NCBI GenBank assembly: GCA_945869475.1
Contig: CAMBOV010000015.1
Coordinates: forward strand, 1-64,000
Origin: Singulisphaera sp. GP187
Lineage (GTDB): Bacteria; Planctomycetota; Phycisphaerae; Phycisphaerales; SM1A02
DNA length: 64,000 nucleotides
Direction of reading: 5' to 3'
A program made the position numbers and the translations under genes. Below the pieces are notes generated by a model. That model worked only from the letters and a program-made list of their open reading frames with translations. It had not been told where the DNA came from and did not search any database. Below, in pieces: positions 3,794-40,574 of the stretch; position 1 is the first letter of the stretch, and each line of letters starts with the position of its first letter.

Positions 3794-5206
3794 TTAGTTT
3801 TCCTTCGTCGGCTCGGTCGCCGCGTCCTGCCCCATCCCAATGAGCGCCCCAGATGTATTCAGTGCCTTACGAACTTCATCGGGCATGAGCGGACCGGTCC
3901 ACGCGCGGAGCCACGCCGATTCGAGAGTCAATGTGATCTCTGAGACTGGAGCGTCGCCGTAAACAAATCCCTCGTTTGCTGCGACGAACGGATCGACCGG
4001 GCGGATCTTCACATCGGTGATGACGATAAAATTCTGTTTCGAAAACGCATTCGAAACGTCTGGAATCTTCGATGTTTCAACGACGAGCGAGACACGAGAA
4101 CTGAAGACGTCGTAGAGCTGATTTGTTGCCCAACCCTTCGAAGAAACTGCGAATTGAGCGATGTTGACAGGAGCGCTTGGATTGATTGGGGGCGCCGACG
4201 GGGGCGCGTCGATGGGATTGCCCTCTGCATCGACGGCTGGTGCGCTATCGCCTTCTGGCTCCGCTGGCGCGGGACCTTCCCGGGCGATCACGGGGCCGAG
4301 AAACTGAATGCGCGTGATTCGCTTGACCGGCGCCTCGAGAATCTTCGCATCGCCATTGACGGACTTGCATGCACGGACAATGTCCTGTGCGATCCAGAGG
4401 TACCACTGCAACGACCAGAGCCGCTGGAGATCGCCCTTGGCGGGTTGCTCGGCTGGCAGTCCGATGGATTCGACTTCACAGTAAATCCCGTGGTTTTGAG
4501 CCGCTTCTCGGTAGAGGCCGAGGCGATATGAGATGAGTTCGGGTTGCAGTTGACTGCGTTCTTCACTTGTGAGTGTGGCGTCTCCAGCCTTCTTGAGGCT
4601 TGATTGAACGAATCGCACTTGTCGCCGCTGCAACTTCACCGTGACGTCTTCGTCCGACGGAGGTGATCCGGCATCGATCTCGGTGAGTAACTCACCGAAG
4701 TGACGAGTGAGTGCCTTGAAGAAGTCGAGATGGATCTGCTGTCTGATCGGATCCTTCGCAGGTAGCCGCAGGTTGATCACCGGTTCGTGGGCGCCTCGAT
4801 TGTGCGCGATTGCGTCCCGTGAGATTTCGGTCGAGTCAGAGCCCCCACCTTTCATCCGCTCCTTCACTTTTTCGACGAGCAACTGCGTGACGACCGTTGT
4901 GGTCGTGATCGGGGCAGAGCCGGGGATGGTGATCGTGACTTCAGAGTTCTGAAGTCGAGTGAGTTCAGCAGCCTTTCCAGCATAGGACTGCGCCTCGGCT
5001 TCGTTGGCAGCTTGGAACTCCCCCTGATACCACCAGCCTGCGCCAAGAGCCGCAACGGACGCGGTCGCGAGGATGACGAGGAGACTGTTCGCCTTCACCC
5101 AAATGAGTGCTGACTCGACCTGAGGTGGGAGCGATCGTGCCGCAGCCGAATCACCGACGGGTGCCGATGATTTGCGTTTGAAGAGCGATTTCAGATCAAT
5201 TTTCAT
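3794..5206 (-). CDS. Hypothetical membrane-anchored protein, second gene of PilM-like cluster (PilO/GspM-like position)
   Basis: A 470-residue protein with a basic cytoplasmic N terminus, one membrane helix at about residues 40-60, and a long presumably periplasmic part. A Pro/Ala-rich linker at about 305-345 separates two folded regions; the second (Ser/Val-rich, ending around the SEITLTLESAWLR segment) looks beta-rich. It lies 18 nt downstream of the PilM-PilN-like gene and 3 nt upstream of another membrane protein. Order and topology match the PilN/PilO or GspL/GspM type of platform protein, but I see no diagnostic PilO motif, so the name is not assigned. Confidence 0.78.
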   Translation of the reverse strand: MKIDLKSLFKRKSSAPVGDSAAARSLPPQVESALIWVKANSLLVILATASVAALGAGWWYQGEFQAANEAEAQSYAGKAAELTRLQNSEVTITIPGSAPITTTTVVTQLLVEKVKERMKGGGSDSTEISRDAIAHNRGAHEPVINLRLPAKDPIRQQIHLDFFKALTRHFGELLTEIDAGSPPSDEDVTVKLQRRQVRFVQSSLKKAGDATLTSEERSQLQPELISYRLGLYREAAQNHGIYCEVESIGLPAEQPAKGDLQRLWSLQWYLWIAQDIVRACKSVNGDAKILEAPVKRITRIQFLGPVIAREGPAPAEPEGDSAPAVDAEGNPIDAPPSAPPINPSAPVNIAQFAVSSKGWATNQLYDVFSSRVSLVVETSKIPDVSNAFSKQNFIVITDVKIRPVDPFVAANEGFVYGDAPVSEITLTLESAWLRAWTGPLMPDEVRKALNTSGALIGMGQDAATEPTKEN

Positions 5207-5224
5207 AGTGTTTTTGAGAGCGAA

Positions 5225-7402
5225 TCACTGACCTTCTGCCGAACCATCGGTCGCCGGAGCCACCGATGCCGGAGCGCCCTTCACAGTCACCGTGAACTTG
5301 AGAATCCCCTCAAACCGCACATCCGTGGGAGAGAGGAGCAGAGGGGCGGCTGGAATCGGAGCGTCCTTGGCGAGGTCGATCTCTGGAAGCTTTTCATCGA
5401 CGCCGACAACTTCTGTGCGTTTGCGCTTTGTCTTGCTTGCGGTGGGATCGCTCGATCCGTCCGTGCCGGAACTACTGCCGTTGCTGCCGGAGTCGCCAGA
5501 CTCGCCGCCAGCTCCGCCGAGGGTGCCGCCGCCGCTCGGTCCACCCGCCTGAGGTCCCAAATGTTTCTTTCGTCCCTGCATTCCGCCGCCACCGAAGCTC
5601 GACTTGCCAGAATCGCTCGAGGGCGATCCAGAAAAACCACTTCCAGACTGATCACCGGGCGTCGTTCCACTCGAATCGGAGGTCGGAGCTTGGCGGGTGC
5701 CGCCGACGATTTTCGTCCAGTTTGGAACGACCAAAGACTCTTCAACAATCGTGTAGGGCGCCTCGGGGCGATCCTTGTTCTTCCTGAGCCAGTCGAGAAT
5801 TCCGTCCTTTTGATTGAGGAATTTCGTGGGCTCGGAGTCCTCTGCGGGAAGGTGGGTCAGCGTGATTCGAACGGAGACTTCGATCTGTCGGTTGTTGTTC
5901 GCGTCAACCTTGGGCGAACCTGAAAAGTCTTCGAGTTGAACGAGTCGTCGGTCTGGGGGTGAAATCGAAACGATTTTCGCAGGGTCGCTGCCGACTTCTT
6001 CGCTCGCAGGACGGGCGGCCGCGAGTGCGCTGTAGGTATCCGATACGAGGTAGGCCCAGACTTCGCGATCTTCTAGGAGCGCGGTGATGTTGGTCGTCGC
6101 CACATCATTGGCGGCCTCTTGCGCGTTCCGAAGCTTCTCGATGAGCGCTTGTGCCTGCTCGACGATGGTGTTGGCGGCGGCGGCGCTGTCCTTCAGCTTG
6201 TTCAGCTCGCGCGAGTCGATGATCACACGCGTAAACATCGCGCCGGCAGTGAGAATGAACAGTGCTGCAGCAGCAACAAACCACGGAGTCTTCGACTTCC
6301 AGATTCGCTGACGGACGCGCGAGATTGGCGAGAGATTGAGTTGCACCTTTGCAAGACCGAGCCCTTGGATGCCAAGCCCGAGCGCGGTGAGCAAATTGAT
6401 CGAATGTGCGGCGAAATCTGGTGCGTCTGGGCCTGCGAGTCGGACGCGCTTGAACTCTTCGAATCGCTTGAGGTTCAGCCGCAGATCGCCAGCGATCTTG
6501 GTGCGGAGTCCTGAGATTTTCAGGGTCGAGCCCACGCCGTAGGCGTCGTGAATCTCAGTGCCTTGATGCGCATCTTGATAGAACTCGCGTGAGCGTCCGA
6601 TCTCGTCGACGAGTTGACCAGTCACTCCGCGCATCGCCATCGTTCGAGCGCGTAGGACATTTTCAGTTGGCATCCGGTCGACCTTGATTCGCTCAGCTTT
6701 CCCGTAGTTCACCCCCTGCTTCTCGAGGGTTTGGACAATCGATTCTGTGAAGTTGGATCCACCGATCGGAAACGTTCGAAACCAACAACTGCTCTTGTCG
6801 ATGACAATCGCATCGGACGAGGTGGTGCCGATGTCGACGCACGCAACGACCGGCGAGGACTCATCGAGTTCGAGGTCGTACTGAAGGGCGTTTGCGACGG
6901 CCACGGGGCTCAGTGTCAGCACATCGGGCTCGATGCCGCACTCTGCGTAGAGAGAGAGCAACTCTTGAAGCCGTTCTTTTGTCACTGCGAAGATGCCGAT
7001 GGGGCATTGCCCAGATTCATCTTGGGCGAAGATGTGGCTATCCCATTCGACTTCGTCGATTGGAAAAGGAATCTGCTGCTTCGCTTCGTACTCGACCATG
7101 CTCGGAAGCATCTTGGCATCGACACTCGGAAGGCTCGAAAAACGGGCAAATCCGGCGTTTCCAGGGAGGCTCATCACGACAGGGACGCCCGCGAGTCGAT
7201 CGGCATTCTCGGTGACGAATGCAGCGAGCGTGACGCGAATCATTCCCGTCTGATCGGAGACTGCGGGATCGGCCAGAACGCGCTTGTGCGGGATCACCGT
7301 GAAGTCGGTGACGGTCACTTCGCCATCCACCAATTCAACACGAAGTGCTTTCAATGCAAACTGACCGACTTCGATCCCCCAGGCGGTCCTATTGGGTGGC
7401 AT
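5225..7402 (-). CDS. PilM-like actin-fold ATPase fused to a PilN-like membrane domain
   Basis: The first 345 or so of 725 residues resemble PilM (type IV pilus assembly, actin/FtsA fold): an N-terminal AWGIEVGQFALKALRV segment and a nucleotide-binding loop VDIGTTSSDAIVID at about 189-202. A membrane helix at about 373-393 and a coiled coil (about 396-432) follow, as in PilN; the rest includes a Gly/Ser-rich linker at about 580-660 and a short C-terminal domain. PilM and PilN are usually separate proteins that bind each other, so this looks like a natural fusion; GspL of type II secretion has a similar plan. It heads a three-gene minus-strand operon. No pilus ATPase, PilC or secretin gene is in the window. 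Confidence 0.85.
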   Translation of the reverse strand: MPPNRTAWGIEVGQFALKALRVELVDGEVTVTDFTVIPHKRVLADPAVSDQTGMIRVTLAAFVTENADRLAGVPVVMSLPGNAGFARFSSLPSVDAKMLPSMVEYEAKQQIPFPIDEVEWDSHIFAQDESGQCPIGIFAVTKERLQELLSLYAECGIEPDVLTLSPVAVANALQYDLELDESSPVVACVDIGTTSSDAIVIDKSSCWFRTFPIGGSNFTESIVQTLEKQGVNYGKAERIKVDRMPTENVLRARTMAMRGVTGQLVDEIGRSREFYQDAHQGTEIHDAYGVGSTLKISGLRTKIAGDLRLNLKRFEEFKRVRLAGPDAPDFAAHSINLLTALGLGIQGLGLAKVQLNLSPISRVRQRIWKSKTPWFVAAAALFILTAGAMFTRVIIDSRELNKLKDSAAAANTIVEQAQALIEKLRNAQEAANDVATTNITALLEDREVWAYLVSDTYSALAAARPASEEVGSDPAKIVSISPPDRRLVQLEDFSGSPKVDANNNRQIEVSVRITLTHLPAEDSEPTKFLNQKDGILDWLRKNKDRPEAPYTIVEESLVVPNWTKIVGGTRQAPTSDSSGTTPGDQSGSGFSGSPSSDSGKSSFGGGGMQGRKKHLGPQAGGPSGGGTLGGAGGESGDSGSNGSSSGTDGSSDPTASKTKRKRTEVVGVDEKLPEIDLAKDAPIPAAPLLLSPTDVRFEGILKFTVTVKGAPASVAPATDGSAEGQ

Positions 7403-31975: not shown

Positions 31976-32674
31976 CTACTTGTCCCACGTCGTCATGCAG
32001 TAGTCGACGCTGCTTGGAAGGCACTGCACCGTTGCGGCGAGTTCGGTGGGCGAAAGCGCAACTCCAGATTGCTTCTTCAACAAACAGAGCGACATTTCAA
32101 GTGCCTCGGCATCGTTCTTGGGCATCGCAGTTGCGGGACCCGTGAGCCCGACAATCACGACGCGCTGCGGGTTGATCACGCATGAGTTGCGAAGGGTCGC
32201 TTGCAGAAGTTCATCCTCATGCAGGTCGCTGACGTTGCGCCCATCGCCTCCGTTGGCGGCCAACTGCGCGACACACCAACATTCGGGACAGCGCCCATTG
32301 GGGTCGACATCATCCCGGTAGAGGGCGACGAATCGGTGCACGATCGAGGTCTCAGTAATGAGGACTGGCGCTCTGGCGGGCGCGGGAGCTGGCACGTCGC
32401 GAGCAAGTTGTTGCAGACTCTCGCGCGGGCGCAGGGCGATCCAGAGTGTTACAGCGAGAAGAAGAGACGCCGCAGTCGCGAGGGCGATGCGCGCGATGCG
32501 CCAAGATGTCGGAGCCTGCACTCGCGCGCCCCGATGGACCCTGAAGTCATCCTCGAAGTCGTCGAGGTCGCCAGACATGTGCAAGAGTTGCTCAGCGTGC
32601 GCTTGGGCCAGTTGTTCAGACCGCTGCGCAGCCTGGGGCTCGAGTTCATCGTCGTTGTTCGCACTGCGTGTCAT
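31976..32674 (-). CDS. Single-pass membrane protein, probable anti-sigma factor
   Basis: A 232-residue protein with a cytoplasmic acidic N-terminal region of about 60 residues, one membrane helix (about 63-82) and an extracytoplasmic domain containing a cysteine cluster (CPECWC). It starts on an ATGA overlap with the sigma-factor gene, the classic layout of an ECF sigma factor and its membrane anti-sigma. No zinc-binding anti-sigma motif is seen in the N-terminal part, so the role rests on position and topology. Confidence 0.7.
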   Translation of the reverse strand: MTRSANNDDELEPQAAQRSEQLAQAHAEQLLHMSGDLDDFEDDFRVHRGARVQAPTSWRIARIALATAASLLLAVTLWIALRPRESLQQLARDVPAPAPARAPVLITETSIVHRFVALYRDDVDPNGRCPECWCVAQLAANGGDGRNVSDLHEDELLQATLRNSCVINPQRVVIVGLTGPATAMPKNDAEALEMSLCLLKKQSGVALSPTELAATVQCLPSSVDYCMTTWDK

Positions 32675-33333
32675 GTGGCCTCTCGTTCTTCGCTCGATGG
32701 GGGATGGGCTGCTCGGGATTTCTGCGAAATGAATCCCCGGCCGGCCAGAAACTCACTGAACCGTCTTAAAACCGAACGTTTTCGCTCGTGCGCCGTGCTC
32801 GGGGAGAGCGAAAGAGAGTCGGCGATTTCGCGTTCAGAGTGACCGTTGACGATGCAGCGCAACATCTGCAGGTCGTCGCGCGAAAATGGCGCGTGTGGTT
32901 CGTCGCCATCGACGACCCGCCGGATGAGTTCAAGCGATTCGGCGAGGTGCAGAGGCACTGCAGCCATTTGCGCTTCGACCTCGGCGAGTCGATCGCTCGA
33001 GTTGGCGAGAACGCGGCCCCGCTCGCGTCCCTGTTCGCGCCGGTAGCGCAGCCAGATGTTCGCTGAGATTGCGTACAAGAATGTCGAAGGACGAGCCTTC
33101 GACGGGTCATACTTTCCGCCCTGAAGCGCCTTCCAGAATTCGATCCAGGTGCGGTGCGCGAGTTCGTCTGCGACATCATGGTTCTCGAGGCGTCCGCCAC
33201 CGAGTCGCCGCAGAAAGTGCACGACGAGTCCGCCGCTGAGGTGTCTATGCAACTCTGAGATGGCGGCGTGATCCCCTGCCATCATCCGCTTCTGGCACGC
33301 TGCGATTCGCTCGTTGAGATCGCCCGCTGGCAT
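32671..33333 (-). CDS. ECF-type RNA polymerase sigma factor
   Basis: A 220-residue sigma factor with only regions 2 and 4. Region 2 includes ADELAHRTWIEFWKALQGGK and the RPSTFLYAISANIWLRYRRE promoter-melting helix; region 4 (about 165-205) has a helix-turn-helix, NGHSEREIADSLSLSPSTAH. It probably directs transcription of a stress or envelope regulon, held by the membrane protein encoded just downstream. TACCCT ends 8 nt before its ATG. It is divergent from the split Rad50-like operon, with 87 bp between the starts. Confidence 0.87.
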   Translation of the reverse strand: MPAGDLNERIAACQKRMMAGDHAAISELHRHLSGGLVVHFLRRLGGGRLENHDVADELAHRTWIEFWKALQGGKYDPSKARPSTFLYAISANIWLRYRREQGRERGRVLANSSDRLAEVEAQMAAVPLHLAESLELIRRVVDGDEPHAPFSRDDLQMLRCIVNGHSEREIADSLSLSPSTAHERKRSVLRRFSEFLAGRGFISQKSRAAHPPSSEEREAT

Positions 33334-33364: not shown

Positions 33365-33420
33365 CACCTCGCGTGGCGCAACCTCGAAAGGTCGCGCGAA
33401 AGGTCTCGGGGCTTCACGAA

Positions 33421-34656
33421 ATGATCCGCCGCATCGAACTCGTCAACTTCATGTCGCACGCGCGCACGGTGATTGAACCGGCTGCGGGATTGACTGTTCT
33501 TGTGGGACCCAACAACTGCGGAAAGAGCGCTGTCGTTGCCGCGCTTCAGATTCTCTGCCACAACGAGAACTCAACGTACGTGCTGCGTCACAACGAAAAG
33601 GCGTGCAGTGTCACCGTCGAAACGGATGACGGCCACACGATTACGTGGGGACGGACCAAGACATCGCCGCATTACGTGATCGATGGGCAGCGCTTTGATC
33701 GACTCGAACGCACAAGTGTTCCCGATGCGCTTCATGCCGCGTTGCGACTTCCACGGGTGGCGGCAGGGACCGAAGAGCTGGACGTTCACTTCGGCGAACA
33801 GAAGAAACCGATCTTCTTGCTCGAAGAATCGCCCTCGTGCGCGGCGCAATTCTTCGCCTCGTCGTCTGATGCTGCGACGCTCATCGAGATGCAGAAGCTG
33901 CACCAGCAGTCAACAGCGGATGCCAAGCGCCAGAGCAAGCAACTCACTGAAGAGGTCGTTCAGCTCGCACGGGAACTCGCTGCGCTCGCTCCGATCGACG
34001 AGATCGACGCGGGGCTTGTGGGTCTTGAGAGCGCCTATCGCACGGTCGAAAGCGTGGACGCGAAGATCGCGCATTTGGCTGGTTCCCTCGCGGAATTGCG
34101 CTCGGCCGATCGATCGCTCCAGTTGATTCGTGCGCGCGCGCGAGCGATGGCTGCGCTTGCACCGGTGCCGGTCATGGGTGATGTTGCGGCGCTCACGCGT
34201 TGCGCGAGGTCGATCGCAGCGATGGCTCTCGAGGTCGAGCGCACGCAGCACGTTGCGGGCGCGCTGGGGAGAATGCAACCACAACCGACCTTCGGTGACG
34301 AGGTCGCAGTCCGCCACGCCATTGCTGCACTCAACAGGCAGCACGCACAACTCACGCGATTGCAACGAACGCACGAATGTCTTCAAGGAGTGCGCGCGAT
34401 CGAGTCACCGCGCGAGGTGAAACCGATCGAACAGATGATCGCCGCACTCGAGCGTGAATTGCAAATCCTGCGTGAGTGCAACGATCGAGCGCAGAAGGAA
34501 CGTGATGCGTTCGCGCAGCTCGAGCGCGAGATCGCCGCGTTCGTTCGAGAGCAGCCCAACTGCACAGCGTGTGGCGCAGTGCTTGATCCATCGAAACTCA
34601 CTTCGCATTTTCACAGTGCATCGCACGGGGATTCACACGGGGCTTCTCATGAGTGA
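33421..34656 (+). CDS. N-terminal half of a split Rad50/SbcC-like ATPase with CxxC hook
   Basis: A 411-residue protein that opens like Rad50/SbcC (MIRRIELVNFMSH) with Walker A GPNNCGKS at residues 29-36. After a lobe of about 110 residues comes an ascending coiled coil (about 150-375), and the chain ends with PNCTACGAVLD, a CxxC like the zinc hook at the tip of Rad50 coils, plus a His-rich tail. No Walker B or signature motif is present: the second ATPase half is missing and is encoded three genes downstream. The 3' end overlaps the nuclease gene by 8 nt. ATG 33421 gives the canonical N terminus; GTG 33373 is an alternative. Confidence 0.82.
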   Translation: MIRRIELVNFMSHARTVIEPAAGLTVLVGPNNCGKSAVVAALQILCHNENSTYVLRHNEKACSVTVETDDGHTITWGRTKTSPHYVIDGQRFDRLERTSVPDALHAALRLPRVAAGTEELDVHFGEQKKPIFLLEESPSCAAQFFASSSDAATLIEMQKLHQQSTADAKRQSKQLTEEVVQLARELAALAPIDEIDAGLVGLESAYRTVESVDAKIAHLAGSLAELRSADRSLQLIRARARAMAALAPVPVMGDVAALTRCARSIAAMALEVERTQHVAGALGRMQPQPTFGDEVAVRHAIAALNRQHAQLTRLQRTHECLQGVRAIESPREVKPIEQMIAALERELQILRECNDRAQKERDAFAQLEREIAAFVREQPNCTACGAVLDPSKLTSHFHSASHGDSHGASHE

Positions 34657-35641
34657 TCGCCACGTGCAACGGTCGGACTACGTTGGGGTGCTGATGATCG
34701 GCGACCCACACCTCGAGGGGCGCGCTCCGGGGTTTCGCAAGGATGATTATCCGCGCGTGATCCTCGAGAAGTTTCGCTGGTGTGTGTCGTATGCGCAGTC
34801 GAATCGACTCTTACCCGTTGTGCTTGGCGATCTCTTCGACAAGCCGCGAGACAATCCCACCTGGATGATCGGTGAACTCATCGAAGTGCTTGCGGGTGTC
34901 GGCTGCATCGGCATCTACGGCAATCACGATTGCGCTGATCCAGAACTCTCAGATCACGATTCGCTCTCGCTCTTGGTGAAGGCGCGGTCGATTCGGCTGC
35001 TCGACGATGCGCCGTGGATCGGCACGATGAATGGACGCGCGGTGGTGATTGGTGGCTCGTCGTATCGCTTGGCGATTCCCGATCAGTTTGTGGTTCCAAC
35101 GGACGGCAGCGCGGCGGCTGACGGCAGCGAACGACCGATCGTCTTCTGGATCACCCACCACGACATTCTTGTGCCTGGCTATGAAGAGCACGGACGGCTG
35201 AAGCCCCGCGCAATTGATCGCATCGACGTGGTGATCAACGGTCACATCCACCGCCGACTCGACGATGTGCAGTGTGGTGAAACGCTGTGGATCACACCGG
35301 GCAATATCAGCCGTCGTTCGCGAAGTGATGCGGCGACGGCGCACTCCCCCGCGGCGTTGCGCATCGACATCACCAGCGGCGGCTACACGCGCACGATGAT
35401 TGAAGTGCCCCACGCGAAGCATGAGGATGTCTTTCATGCAGCGGTGATCGATGAGTCGATCGAGCACGATCCGTCGCTCTCGCGGTTCATCGCAGGCCTC
35501 GCCGAACTTCAGAAGCGCCGCACTGAAAGTGGCTCTGGACTCGTCGCGTTCCTCGAGAAGAATGTCAGTCAGTTTGAACAGCCCGTTGCAGATGAAATCA
35601 TGAGACTTGCCAAGGAGGTCACGACCAATGCCACAGAATGA
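34649..35641 (+). CDS. Mre11/SbcD-like metallophosphoesterase
   Basis: A 330-residue calcineurin-like phosphoesterase. The metal-site motifs appear in order: MIGDPHLEG (Asp19, His21), VLGDLFDKP (about 59-67), YGNHDCAD (about 90-97), WITHHDIL, and INGHIHRRL. Mre11 and SbcD are nucleases acting with Rad50/SbcC on DNA ends, and the flanking genes encode the two ATPase halves, so this is most likely the nuclease subunit of the same complex. The C-terminal 80 residues are helical and may bind the ATPase coils. It overlaps both neighbours (8 and 14 nt). Confidence 0.88.
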   Translation: MSDRHVQRSDYVGVLMIGDPHLEGRAPGFRKDDYPRVILEKFRWCVSYAQSNRLLPVVLGDLFDKPRDNPTWMIGELIEVLAGVGCIGIYGNHDCADPELSDHDSLSLLVKARSIRLLDDAPWIGTMNGRAVVIGGSSYRLAIPDQFVVPTDGSAAADGSERPIVFWITHHDILVPGYEEHGRLKPRAIDRIDVVINGHIHRRLDDVQCGETLWITPGNISRRSRSDAATAHSPAALRIDITSGGYTRTMIEVPHAKHEDVFHAAVIDESIEHDPSLSRFIAGLAELQKRRTESGSGLVAFLEKNVSQFEQPVADEIMRLAKEVTTNATE

Positions 35642-35972
35642 ATCTACCGGATCGCCACAATCTCGCACGCAATCGATCGAAGAATTGCAGAAGCGATTCA
35701 AGAAACTCGACGAGGCGCGCATTGCGGCGGATGCAAATCAGAAGACCGCCCAAGCCCGCATGAATGAACTCAACGCCGGTGCGAGGGACACGTATGGCAC
35801 CGACGACATCGACGCACTGAAAAAGCAGCGCACCGAGATGATCACAGAGAACGAGCGTGCACGAAGCGCCTATCAAGCCGCGCTTGACGCGGTCGAGGGC
35901 GAACTCGCAGAAGTTGAGCGGGCGTTTGCGGATGCGGCGGCGAAAGCTGCAGAGGATGAGTCGCGCGCATGA
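35628..35972 (+). CDS. Small coiled-coil protein of the split Rad50-Mre11 operon
   Basis: A 114-residue, almost wholly helical charged protein with heptad-like segments at about 16-50 and 65-110. No family is recognised. A perfect Shine-Dalgarno AAGGAGGT (35612-35619) lies 8 nt before its ATG, inside the nuclease gene, and its stop overlaps the next start (ATGA). Its place between the N half and the C half suggests it supplies part of the descending coiled-coil arm that a full-length Rad50 would carry, or that it bridges the subunits. This is inference from gene order. Confidence 0.72.
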   Translation: MPQNESTGSPQSRTQSIEELQKRFKKLDEARIAADANQKTAQARMNELNAGARDTYGTDDIDALKKQRTEMITENERARSAYQAALDAVEGELAEVERAFADAAAKAAEDESRA

Positions 35973-36706
35973 CGATCGAAGCGCGAGATGAGCAGAGCGC
36001 GTCGGCGGGCGAACCGCCGGCCGTGCAGTTGCCACTGCGGTTGCCACTGCGGTCGCCACTACGGTCACCAGCTGCTGCGCGCAGGCGAATCGAATTGCTT
36101 GCGATTCGACGCGATGATCGTGCGAAGTCGACGAGTTCCGCGAAGGGGCGAATCGTGCAGTTCGACGCGCAGCTCGAGCTTGCGCCCAAGGTGACCGATG
36201 CGCTCGAGACTCTCAGCGAACGGTTGTTCAAAGAAGTGTTGCGAGTCGTCGAGGCGCAGGCGACCAACGCGTTGCAGGAGGTGCTTGATCAGGAAATCAA
36301 ACTCAAGACTGAGGCGACGTTCAAGCGCGGCGCCGCGGCGGTTGAATTCTCGATTGATAACAACGGAAACAAAGAAGATGTCCTGCGCGGTCAAGGCGGA
36401 TCGGTCGCGAACATTCTTAGCGTCAGTTTGCGCATGCTCGCGCTCGCGACGCTCGGCGAAGACAAACATCGAAGGGTGCTCGTGCTCGATGAGCAAGATT
36501 GTTGGCTTCGACCCGACCTCGTTCCAAAGTTTGTGAGGATCGTGCAGCACGCTGGGCGCAAACTCGGATTTCAGGTGATCATGATCAGCCACCACGATCA
36601 AAGCGTTTTCGAGCGATTCGCCGACAAAATCTACCGATTCGCTCCGCTCATGGGCGTTGTCGAAGTACGCGAAGTCGCAAAGTCACCAACGGTTGTGGAT
36701 GGGTGA
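35969..36706 (+). CDS. C-terminal half of a split Rad50/SbcC-like ATPase
   Basis: A 245-residue protein with the second set of Rad50/SMC-type ATPase motifs: a signature-like segment GQGGSVANILSVSLRMLAL at about 141-159, Walker B RVLVLDEQD at 169-177, and the H-loop MISHHDQ at about 205-211. It has no Walker A. The N-terminal 40 residues are a Pro/Leu/Arg stretch from 12-bp tandem repeats (36028-36063), followed by a short helical arm (about 60-110). With the upstream N half it would complete one ATPase head. The canonical LSGGQ is altered, as I recall for other small SbcC-like ATPases. Confidence 0.82.
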   Translation: MTIEARDEQSASAGEPPAVQLPLRLPLRSPLRSPAAARRRIELLAIRRDDRAKSTSSAKGRIVQFDAQLELAPKVTDALETLSERLFKEVLRVVEAQATNALQEVLDQEIKLKTEATFKRGAAAVEFSIDNNGNKEDVLRGQGGSVANILSVSLRMLALATLGEDKHRRVLVLDEQDCWLRPDLVPKFVRIVQHAGRKLGFQVIMISHHDQSVFERFADKIYRFAPLMGVVEVREVAKSPTVVDG

Positions 36707-37644: not shown

Positions 37645-38238
37645 TCAACAGGTGGCGTCGACATCGTGCACTTCGTTGATATTCGCAAGTGAACTCGCGT
37701 CGCACGTGACCTCGACGATGGTCTCTCGCACCAGCGCGCTCGAGAGTTGGTAGTGACCCGCTGCGATTCGCGCCGCGAGGGTTGGAAGTGCTGCCTGCGT
37801 GTAGAGCCCAGCACAGGGATGGGTTCGATCGGTCGCGGCGAACACGGCGAAGGCCTGTGGATTCGCCTGCGCCGCTGCGAGTATCCGCAGTGCTGAATCA
37901 GCGCTGAACGAGGGCATGTCGCCCGCGAGAACGAAGATCGATCCACGCCAACACTGCAGTGCGCTGGTGATGCCGCCGAGGGGTCCGATGGCTGGGTGCG
38001 CATCGATGATGATGCCATCGGCGAGCAACGGCACATCGGGATGGCACTCCCCCACCACCTTCACGCGCCGTCCAAAGATGCTGCGCAAGATTTCGATCGA
38101 GTGAAGCACGAGCGGTGATCCACTCGCGCCGATCGGTTCTCGAAGTTTATCGCGACCAAAGCGGCGACTTCTTCCGCCGACGAGCACGATGGGCTGTATC
38201 GACTCGAGAAACGCCGCGTTCAACGCGTCACTGCTCAT
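37645..38238 (-). CDS. mobA: Molybdenum cofactor guanylyltransferase
   Basis: A 197-residue nucleotidyltransferase. The N-terminal PIVLVGGRSRRFGRDK is the MobA loop (usually LAGGxSxRMGxDK) and IFVLAGDMPSF is the metal-binding Asp segment. MobA adds GMP to molybdopterin to make the bis-MGD cofactor. The start at 38238 overlaps the mogA/moaB stop by 11 nt and removes an implausible Arg/Cys-rich extension. It is the last gene of a four-gene cofactor operon. A 14-bp palindrome overlaps its stop codon. Confidence 0.87.
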   Translation of the reverse strand: MSSDALNAAFLESIQPIVLVGGRSRRFGRDKLREPIGASGSPLVLHSIEILRSIFGRRVKVVGECHPDVPLLADGIIIDAHPAIGPLGGITSALQCWRGSIFVLAGDMPSFSADSALRILAAAQANPQAFAVFAATDRTHPCAGLYTQAALPTLAARIAAGHYQLSSALVRETIVEVTCDASSLANINEVHDVDATC

Positions 38239-38788
38239 GTGCGATGACCTTGCCAGTGACGGGCGTCGCATCGGGGCGTCCGTCGTCTTGCACCTCGCCG
38301 CGCAAGGTCTCGATCGCGTGCGGCAAGATGTCGAGGATCGCTTCAAGGTTTTCACTTGATCCGCGCGGCGACCCAGGAAGCGTGAGGATCAGTGTGCGAC
38401 CGATCGTGCCTGAGACTCCACGCGACAGAAATGCGCGCGGCGTCTTGCTCATGCATCGCAGTCGCGCGAGATCCATCAGCGCAGGATGCTCGCGCTCGAA
38501 GACACCCCGCGCAGCTTCTGGAGTGACATCGCGAGGCGCGAGCCCAGTCCCACCCGTGCTCACGATCAAATCGATCTCGGCTGACGGGAGCGACCACGCG
38601 ACAAAACACGCGGCGATGTGCTGCTTTTCGTCAGGAACACAGCGCATTTCGACAATTGTCGCGCCCATGCGCGCGCGCAAGATCTCTGCGAGACCTGGTC
38701 CAGAGGTGTCGACGGTCTCGCCTGTGCTGCACCGATCGCTCACAGTGAGAACCGCTGCTCGAATCGATCGCGGTGCGGCGTGCGTCAT
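38228..38788 (-). CDS. mog: Molybdopterin adenylyltransferase (MogA/MoaB type)
   Basis: A 186-residue MogA/MoaB-fold protein. The signature motifs are AVLTVSDRCSTGE at the N terminus, VSTGGTGLAPRDVTPEA in the centre, and the LPGSPRGSSEN loop. It adenylates molybdopterin before molybdate insertion by MoeA. Which of the two paralogous names applies cannot be settled from sequence alone. It overlaps moaC by ATGA at its start (38785-38788) and mobA at its end. Confidence 0.9.
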   Translation of the reverse strand: MTHAAPRSIRAAVLTVSDRCSTGETVDTSGPGLAEILRARMGATIVEMRCVPDEKQHIAACFVAWSLPSAEIDLIVSTGGTGLAPRDVTPEAARGVFEREHPALMDLARLRCMSKTPRAFLSRGVSGTIGRTLILTLPGSPRGSSENLEAILDILPHAIETLRGEVQDDGRPDATPVTGKVIAHEQ

Positions 38789-39288
38789 TCGAGACTCGCC
38801 GGTGCGATGTATGAGCCGTGGCGTCCACCATGTTTTTCGGTGACGCGGATCGACTCAATCACCATCGACTTGTCGACGGACTTGCCCATGTCGATCACTG
38901 TGAGGCACGCAACGGCGACCGCTGTGAGCGCTTCCATCTCGACACCGGTTCGCGACTCGGTGCGCACAGTCGCACAGACTCGAATGCCTCCTGACGTGAG
39001 CTCGAGCGTGATGTCGACTGCGTCGAGCGGCAACGTGTGGCACAGTGGGATCAACTCATCAGTGCGCTTCGCCGCAAGAATGCCTGCGAGACGTGCAACA
39101 TCGAGAAGCGATCCCTTGGCGAGTGAGTTCTCTCGGATGCGTTGCTCGAGTTCAGCCGAAATGCGAACGAACCCCTCGGCCGCTGCCATGCGCTTCGTGA
39201 TTGGCTTTGCGCCAACATCGACCATGCGCGCGCCACCACCCTCATCGATGTGCGAAAGTTTCGTCGTCTCGTCGCGCAAGTTGCTCAT
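38785..39288 (-). CDS. moaC: Cyclic pyranopterin monophosphate synthase
   Basis: A 167-residue MoaC, which acts after MoaA to form cyclic pyranopterin monophosphate. Conserved features: ARMVDVGAKPITKR near the start, TDELIPLCHTLPLDAVDI in the centre with the LCH active-site histidine, and TGVEMEALTAVAVACLTVIDM with DMGKSVDK following. Length is typical. ATG 39288 overlaps the moeA stop (ATGA at 39285-39288). No moaA is present in the window. Confidence 0.95.
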   Translation of the reverse strand: MSNLRDETTKLSHIDEGGGARMVDVGAKPITKRMAAAEGFVRISAELEQRIRENSLAKGSLLDVARLAGILAAKRTDELIPLCHTLPLDAVDITLELTSGGIRVCATVRTESRTGVEMEALTAVAVACLTVIDMGKSVDKSMVIESIRVTEKHGGRHGSYIAPASLE

Positions 39289-40574
39289 GTCGACCAAGGA
39301 TAGAAGGGGGAACTCGCGGATGCGCCTGCTCCCGGGGGAACCTCAATGAATCCATCCGTGATTCCTGCGGAAATCATGTCGCCAGACCCCCGTCCATCGG
39401 CGAGGTGCGCCTCGCCAGTGCTGGTAATGCGCACGAGTCGATGCCACCAGAGGTCGATCGACTTGTGATCTGGGTTCGCGACCGCGACGCGAGCGACTGA
39501 AACTTGGTGAGCGAGGCCAGCCATCGCGTCGAGCACTGGCAGAACGATTCGAGTGCATGTCACGAGCGTCGAGACAGGATTGCCCGGCAGCGCGAAGATG
39601 GCGACTCCGCCTGCGACGGCTGCGAGCATTGGCTTGCCCGGGCGTTGGGGCAAGCCGTGAAAGAGCACATCAGCGCCAACCGATTCAATTGCCGTGCGAA
39701 CTCCGTCGCGGTGTCCCATCGAAATGCCGCCCGTGAAAATGATCGCGTCGCAGCAGGTGAGCGCGGTGCGAAGTTCGCTCGCGAGCGCGTCATCTTCATC
39801 GCGCACATGCGTGACGCGTGTGACCTCGATCGATGGGTGCGCCGCGAGCACCGCTTCGAGTGCAGGACCGTTGCTGTTTCGAATCTGAAATGGCGCAGGA
39901 GTTTCACCGGGCGCGACGACTTCGTCTCCAGTGGTGATGATCGCAACATGCACCCGCGCGAAGAGCAGAGGCAGTGCGCACCCGACTGCGGCAAGCGCAC
40001 CGATCGAGGCGGCGGTGAGACGTCTGCCACTGGCGAGAAGTTCGTCGCCAGCGCGAGTGTTCTCGCCGCGCGCGCGGATGTTTGCACCAGCGCGCAGAGC
40101 CCCTCGTTTCTGCTGTGAAATCGTGATTGTGTGAGTCGCGGCGCCGTCTTGGTGGTCTGTGACATGTTCGGCGAGATGCTCGACCAGATCTTCGACCAGA
40201 TCCTCGCGCTTGATGACCGCATCGCAGCCTGGCGGGATCGCCGCGCCCGTGACAATGCGCACGGCCTGACCTGCGAGCATCGGGGACGGCGCCTCGCCGA
40301 TGCGAACTTCTCCCGCGACGGTGAGCGTGAGATCGCGCGCGCGGTCGAGCGCGAGGTCTGCGGTGCGGATCGCGAACCCATCCATTGCTGAAGTATCGAA
40401 AGGTGGACTGTCTCGATCGGCGCGAATCGACTCGGCGAGAACGCGTCCTCGCGCACTCTTCAACGGCACGCGCTCGACGGAAGGCTCGCGAGCGCGAGCC
40501 TGCATTCGCGCGATCATCAGGTCGACGGCGGCCTGCGGCGAATCACACGCGAATGGTTGGTTTCGAAATCCCAT
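39285..40574 (-). CDS. moeA: Molybdopterin molybdenumtransferase
   Basis: A 429-residue MoeA, inserting molybdate into adenylated molybdopterin. The N-terminal domains contain LKSARGRVLAESIRADRDSP and FDTSAMDGFAIR, followed by IVTGAAIPPGCDAVIKRED. The MoCF domain has IITTGDEVVAPGE and FTGGISMGHRDGVR, with PGNPVSTLVT near the C-terminal domain. It heads the minus-strand cofactor operon and is divergent from moaD, with 31 bp between the starts. Confidence 0.95.
   Translation of the reverse strand: MGFRNQPFACDSPQAAVDLMIARMQARAREPSVERVPLKSARGRVLAESIRADRDSPPFDTSAMDGFAIRTADLALDRARDLTLTVAGEVRIGEAPSPMLAGQAVRIVTGAAIPPGCDAVIKREDLVEDLVEHLAEHVTDHQDGAATHTITISQQKRGALRAGANIRARGENTRAGDELLASGRRLTAASIGALAAVGCALPLLFARVHVAIITTGDEVVAPGETPAPFQIRNSNGPALEAVLAAHPSIEVTRVTHVRDEDDALASELRTALTCCDAIIFTGGISMGHRDGVRTAIESVGADVLFHGLPQRPGKPMLAAVAGGVAIFALPGNPVSTLVTCTRIVLPVLDAMAGLAHQVSVARVAVANPDHKSIDLWWHRLVRITSTGEAHLADGRGSGDMISAGITDGFIEVPPGAGASASSPFYPWST

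Follow-up and report, generated by a model that had tools for sequence, protein, structure and literature searches.

A probable natural split of a Rad50-type ATPase head across two genes in an Mre11-Rad50-like operon of planctomycetes

Introduction

The Mre11-Rad50 and SbcCD complexes are built from ATPase lobes, a metallophosphoesterase partner and a CxxC motif, and the signature motif of canonical Rad50 and SbcC is of the LSGG type. Four PDB entries (1f2t, 1f2u, 1ii8 and 9a9j) are laboratory constructs in which a natural single-chain Rad50 was made as two chains, and their heads reassemble from the two pieces. Here we describe an operon of Singulisphaera sp. GP187 (assembly GCA_945869475.1, contig CAMBOV010000015.1, positions 1 to 64,000 of the forward strand) whose four genes probably encode a naturally divided complex of this kind, with the halves of a Rad50-type ATPase on the first and last genes and an Mre11-like nuclease gene between them. 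The whole 64,000-nucleotide (nt) stretch that was analysed is called the window.

Rearranged genes of this family have been reported before. A set of fused Mre11/Rad50 proteins occurs on plasmids and viruses, and two members were reported without one SbcC NTPase segment (PMC3175470). This set is the nearest precedent. A related question concerns the arm that extends from such ATPase heads: SMC arm lengths are periodic, at ~91-99 residues, and whether arm length matters in Rad50 was left open (PMC5344682). The first-pass annotation of the window, made from its letters alone, had named an existing description of this gene order as grounds for dropping its proposal. In the open-access literature that we searched, we found no description of a naturally split Rad50 or SbcC.

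Results

Layout of the operon and its ATPase motifs

The operon and its motifs are as follows (window positions, all on the + strand).

33421..34656, +: gene 1, 411 amino acids (aa); ATPase-head half with Walker A, followed by a helical-repeat arm and a C-terminal CxxC
34649..35641, +: gene 2, 330 aa; Mre11/SbcD-like metallophosphoesterase
35628..35972, +: gene 3, 114 aa; probably a helical hairpin, with a conserved (Y/F)GTDD turn
35969..36706, +: gene 4, 245 aa; ATPase-head half with Walker B and signature, preceded by a 72-residue helix
33505..33528, +: Walker A GPNNCGKS, gene 1 residues 29-36; G, N, N and GKS invariant in 38 homologues
34141..34251, +: arm repeat unit 1, gene 1 residues 241-277; 20.6 bits with the repeat hidden Markov model (HMM)
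34261..34371, +: arm repeat unit 2, gene 1 residues 281-317; repeat HMM 11.6 bits
34417..34473, +: partial arm repeat unit, gene 1 residues 333-351; repeat HMM 3.6 bits
34561..34572, +: CxxC of gene 1 (CTAC; C381, C384), presumed zinc-hook half
35612..35619, +: Shine-Dalgarno AAGGAGGT ahead of gene 3
36389..36403, +: signature-like GQGGS, gene 4 residues 141-145; in 36/38 homologues
36479..36496, +: Walker B LVLDEQ, gene 4 residues 171-176; Walker B in 38/38 homologues
36587..36595, +: H-loop SHH, gene 4 residues 207-209; in 38/38 homologues

All four genes are intact, and the neighbours overlap by 8 nt (genes 1 and 2), 14 nt (genes 2 and 3) and 4 nt (genes 3 and 4). These overlaps agree with the first-pass annotation, as does the strong Shine-Dalgarno ahead of gene 3. 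That annotation had the operon begin at 33,373, an in-frame GTG upstream of gene 1; the conserved start is the ATG at 33,421, and the rest of the proposed extent (to 36,706) stands.

The ATPase motifs of the two outer genes are complementary. Walker A lies in gene 1, while the signature, Walker B and H-loop lie in gene 4, which has no P-loop in the window. Both the window sequence and the alignments of 38 homologues bear out the earlier reading of gene 4 as having the latter three motifs and no Walker A: Walker A is found in 38/38 gene 1 proteins and 0/38 gene 4 proteins. Four gene 1 proteins of the 38-row alignment show a loose Walker-B-like pattern. The full set of ABC head motifs (Walker A, signature, Walker B, H-loop) is present only across the two proteins combined.

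Gene 1 passes the curated cut-offs of Pfam AAA_15 and AAA_23, and its profile matches Rad50 ATPase chains (E = 1.7e-8) and the Rad50 zinc-hook fragment 1l8d (E = 1.8e-4). A CxxC lies near the C-terminus in 52 of 54 gene 1 homologues. We built single-protein AlphaFold2 models of window gene 1 (with 38 homologues) and window gene 4. The gene 1 model (predicted local distance difference test, pLDDT, 82.3; predicted template modelling score, pTM, 0.38) matches SMC and Rad50 heads, and its top matches include the N-half chains 9a9j_A, 1f2u_A/C and 1ii8_A. The gene 4 model (pLDDT 86.1, pTM 0.65) consists of a 72-residue helix followed by a C-lobe, and its top matches are the C-half chains 9a9j_B, 1ii8_B and 1f2u_D/B, with 1f2t_B slightly lower. 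Template modelling scores against the Rad50 C-half chains are moderate (0.56-0.71 by target length). Because the halves match N-half and C-half chains, respectively, each protein corresponds to one chain of a two-piece Rad50 head. We infer from the models that gene 1 (N-lobe) and gene 4 (C-lobe) would assemble in trans into one Rad50-type head.

Gene 2 and gene 3

Gene 2 had been described as Mre11-like with its metal motifs in place, and this description holds. The protein matches Pfam Metallophos over the curated cut-off (2.8e-7), its profile matches Mre11/SbcD chains (E = 1e-4 to 3e-4), and in the window it carries the motifs GDPH, GDLF, GNHD, THHD and GHIH. Among 37 homologues the counts are 37 for GDxH, 35 for GDxF, 37 for GNHD, 31 for THHD-like and 36 for GHxH. 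From its sequence, gene 2 is the predicted Mre11-type phosphoesterase partner. Gene 3 had no convincing match to any family in Pfam, PHROG and defence-family searches. It is probably a helical hairpin with the conserved turn, and it remains a separate gene even in relatives where genes 4 and 1 are fused.

Distribution, selection and co-occurrence

A scan of GTDB contigs found 189 relatives, and we analysed the best 80; some of these overlap with the genomes of our other sets. The order 1-2-3-4 was found at 60 of the 80 loci, a contig end cuts five, and gene 4 stands alone in fifteen. The hosts are mostly Planctomycetota and Desulfobacterales-type bacteria; one member each is assigned to Poribacteria, Sumerlaeia, Chlamydiota, Bacillota and other groups, though labels of metagenome bins may be wrong. 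Two congeners of the window's genome have the operon. The first-pass annotation had proposed looking for this gene order in other planctomycetes, and a sample of 392 genomes from the phylum yielded fifteen further genomes with the operon, every one ordered 1-2-3-4. Start codons and motif patterns in these surveys were set by simple rules of our own.

In related planctomycete operon pairs with measurable synonymous divergence (dS), the ratio of nonsynonymous to synonymous divergence (dN/dS) was 0.02-0.17 across all four genes. The split is thus conserved under selection in dozens of bacteria, as befits an old variant that still functions, and is no sign of gene breakage.

The two halves also occur together when they are not linked. 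Among genomes with gene 4 alone, 10 of 12 have gene 1 on another stretch, mostly with genes 2 and 3 alongside. In the 392-genome sample, all sixteen genomes with a strong gene 4 also have gene 1, and one further genome (G396) has a weaker gene 1. Since the genomes are related, these counts are not independent. In G396 the gene 1 and gene 2 relatives follow a RecA-like gene on a phage-like stretch of a planctomycete bin (L216, G396:C21, 150-3583), with no gene 4 nearby.

We searched the window's genome for a canonical SbcC. PF13558 had no match there, and nothing exceeded the cut-off of TIGR00618, which only 1 of 14 controls passed. Matches over the cut-off of PF13476 were gene 1, an SMC and two shorter open reading frames (ORFs) that we took, by length, for RecF and RecN. 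Among other genomes bearing the operon, PF13558 matched in 6 of 17, five times in ORFs of ~1100-1180 aa. Therefore the split system can coexist with canonical SbcC and is not simply its replacement.

Two proposals of the first-pass annotation gain from these surveys. That a Rad50-type ATPase is carried on two genes with the nuclease between them agrees with the sixty conserved operons and the complementary folds. That the system works and is not decaying is supported by the same operons, by purifying selection, by the unlinked co-occurrence and by the lack of a PF13558 match in the window's own genome.

The arm of gene 1

The ATPase lobe of gene 1 is linked to the CxxC by an arm in which helical repeats of ~39 residues follow one another in tandem; the units lie mostly 38-40 residues apart and have an approximate consensus of AL..L.PPP.L.D...L..LI..L. 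The first-pass annotation was right about the Walker A and the terminal CxxC of gene 1; its coiled coil is only partly apt, as much of the arm is made of these repeats. Arm lengths cluster at ~200, 239, 278, 317, 356, 395 and 511-515 residues, following about 200 + 39n. Both odd and even numbers of units are seen, and a few arms (325, 364) lie off this ladder by ~8 residues.

Over 67 proteins, drawn from the 60-locus set and earlier operons (which overlap), the resultant length at a period of 39.0 was 0.91. Over the 22 distinct lengths, which are phylogenetically non-independent and come from the data that gave rise to the idea of quantisation, it was 0.86, compared with a 99% null value of 0.61 for uniform lengths. 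We measured the arm twice with different anchor definitions, and both gave a step of ~39 residues; three gene 1 proteins (L110, L133, L147) are absent from the first measurement as their anchor or CxxC pattern was not found. Six canonical SbcC fragments and one SMC had no match to the repeat HMM, which gave little signal in permuted and phage forms. As the model was built from the family whose repeats it counts, only the lack of matches in the controls is informative.

Genes 3 and 4 are constant in length (medians 101 and 225), and neither correlates significantly with arm length (Spearman -0.12 and -0.13). The arm varies while genes 3 and 4 do not, so it is apparently not paired as in Rad50. 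Judged from these lengths, a Rad50-type arm of two length-matched strands does not fit, and a self-folded or linear repeat arm would.

Permuted fusions and phage relatives

In five relatives, genes 4 and 1 are fused in that order into one chain with the CxxC at its end. The carriers are plasmids of Bosea, Pseudomonas, Alteromonas and Aeromonas and one IMG/VR contig, the only relative found in our IMG/VR scans and already permuted. The fusion is preceded by gene 3 in four of these five relatives and followed by gene 2 in four (in one case at only E = 0.01). The fusion is the reverse of the Rad50 lobe order, a circular permutation. The cyclic gene order is the same in split and fused forms (1-2-3-4 and 3-4/1-2), which trimming of a tandem copy would produce, a step that we infer.

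Split relatives also occur in phages. Microcystis phage Mvi-JY20 matches all four genes, some only weakly, and has them in the order 1-2-3-4, and in Bacillus phage vB_BboS-125, an uncultured 485-kb phage and Microbacterium phage Magritte the halves are apart or reordered. PHROG 16465 ('exonuclease') matches gene 1 (3.5e-20) and PHROG 15167 ('ATPase') matches gene 4 (1.8e-10). In a gene 4 tree, bacterial split operons form one supported group, and the permuted and phage forms fall outside it on very long branches; the tree lacks an outgroup and gives no order in which the forms arose.

Neighbouring genes

Upstream of the operon in the window, on the - strand (31976-33333), are a divergent sigma factor (Sigma70_r2) and an ORF with a membrane-like segment, which also lie upstream of the operon in another genome (G006). 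Downstream are an AIM24-family protein (PF01987; 36863-37576, +) and, at 37645-40574 (-), ORFs that by eye resemble a molybdenum-cofactor cluster (MobA/MoaB/MoaC/MoeA-like). In one congener (L017, G012:C14), the operon sits between an array of clustered regularly interspaced short palindromic repeats (CRISPR) and a Cas4g/Cas1g fusion plus Cas2 (elements at 24-623, 4075-5877 and 5829-6173). The array has eight copies of a 36-nt repeat and one degenerate copy, and cas4-1 begins 3 nt past gene 4. In a bacterial metagenome-assembled genome (L154, 1-12267), what looks like an NADH-quinone oxidoreductase operon surrounds the split operon, and a CRISPR-like repeat array lies close to the end of the contig.

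Discussion

We propose that the operon encodes a split Mre11-Rad50-like complex, with an ATPase head assembled in trans from two proteins, an Mre11-like nuclease, a repeat arm ending in a CxxC and a gene 3 hairpin. We give this reading a probability of roughly 0.78, and support is good for the composite head in particular. By analogy with the family, such a complex would carry out ATP-dependent processing of DNA ends. ATP would be held where two trans-assembled heads meet, with the Walker A of one head on one side and the GQGGS signature of its partner on the other, and ATP-driven opening and closing of the heads would feed DNA ends to a dimer of the gene 2 nuclease. The CxxC of the gene 1 arm may bind zinc and join two complexes, as the Rad50 hook does, and the gene 3 hairpin would probably pack on the gene 4 helix or the gene 1 arm.

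Several results weigh against this proposal. Sequence search with the gene 4 profile found no Rad50 (the best E, 0.008, was to other ABC/SMC chains), so the assignment of gene 4 depends on its fold, its motifs and the fusions. SMC heads match both models nearly as well as Rad50, RecF heads match too, and with its pTM of 0.38 the gene 1 model gives the helices of the arm and not their packing. Two genomes (G440, G441) have gene 4 with no gene 1 found, and in G396 relatives of genes 1 and 2 occur with no gene 4 at the thresholds used. Finally, in four of the five permuted relatives (L048, L049, L047, L157) the protein in the nuclease position is without most or all of the metal motifs, which suggests a non-catalytic partner; nuclease activity is thus not kept in every branch.

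The first-pass annotation had explained the locus as a single gene broken at the hook, with the nuclease at the break and the descending arm cut again, so that genes 1, 3 and 4 would be the ascending arm, the cut descending arm and the C-lobe of an ordinary Rad50. The terminal CxxC of gene 1, the helix ahead of the gene 4 C-lobe, the nuclease between the halves and the match of both lobes to Rad50 all suit this history. We nevertheless find it unlikely. In the fused relatives gene 4 precedes gene 1, opposite to the order in Rad50, and split relatives exist in phages. An arm of 200-515 residues in steps of ~39 has no counterpart in the constant genes 3 and 4, its repeat is missing from the canonical SbcC fragments and the SMC, and gene 3 keeps apart even in the 4-1 fusions. 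It is very improbable that genes 1 and 2 form one complex while gene 4 works on its own, perhaps as a regulator, with no shared head: gene 4 is unlinked to genes 1-3 in some genomes and each half has some similarity to other ABC ATPases, but each also lacks the motifs that the other holds, the halves are fused in relatives, and unlinked copies co-occur all the same.

An anti-phage defence system, with an SMC/ABC sensor and a nuclease, would suit the CRISPR-flanked operon of G012 and the plasmid and phage relatives, yet we think it quite unlikely. Cas1 or Cas2 adjoined the operon at no other locus examined, and flank clustering (with representatives inspected by reading only) gave no conserved defence neighbourhood. 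No defence family was specific to the gene set. Among the matches listed for Gabija, PARIS, Lamassu and Septu-type defence ATPases, none was family-specific over the full length, and those to gene 1 cover only its N-terminal ATPase region; gene 2 had no hit. The window's assembly consists of 32 contigs, which leaves room in principle for an error of sequencing or assembly or for a pseudogene in decay. This is scarcely credible given the same split in many independent genomes, single-contig ones included, and the low dN/dS; the frameshift or assembly error that the first-pass annotation had named as a refutation is excluded on the same grounds.

We see about an even chance of a stronger form of our proposal, in which the split Mre11-Rad50-like complex represents a distinct and old lineage with a two-protein head, a self-contained quantised arm with a free-end hook in place of the usual paired coiled coil, and fusions that arose through rotation from 1-2-3-4 to 3-4-1-2. 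If a split head is correct, the covalent coiled-coil and hook loop joining the Rad50 lobes is dispensable, and a head made of two proteins permits control through the supply of either half. The quantised arms provide a natural length series (~200-515 residues, odd and even units) for tests of arm length. Phage families annotated only as 'exonuclease' (PHROG 16465) or 'ATPase' (PHROG 15167) also gain a meaning.

The split complex shares with Mre11-Rad50 and SbcCD the ATPase lobes, the metallophosphoesterase partner and the CxxC. It differs in carrying the head on two genes (60 loci), with one chain only in the permuted relatives, in the C-terminal position of the CxxC, in a repeat-built arm of variable length, in an extra hairpin peptide and in a GQGGS in place of the LSGG-type signature. 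The length-matched, antiparallel two-arm coiled coil of Mre11-Rad50 appears to be absent, as the arm is uncoupled from genes 3 and 4. With SMC proteins it has in common an ABC head fold and periodic arm lengths; the SMC arm is a continuous coiled coil with a hinge, whereas here the arm consists of ~39-residue helix-plus-proline-turn units and there is a nuclease partner. Like the fused Mre11/Rad50 set (PMC3175470), it involves rearranged Mre11-Rad50 genes on plasmids and viruses, but in that set the nuclease is joined to the ATPase, and the rearrangement here splits or permutes the ATPase. The two PHROG families would be phage versions of the halves, annotated as unrelated proteins and varying in gene order. 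In the two-chain Rad50 heads of the PDB the N-half and C-half are likewise separate chains; in this operon the split is natural.

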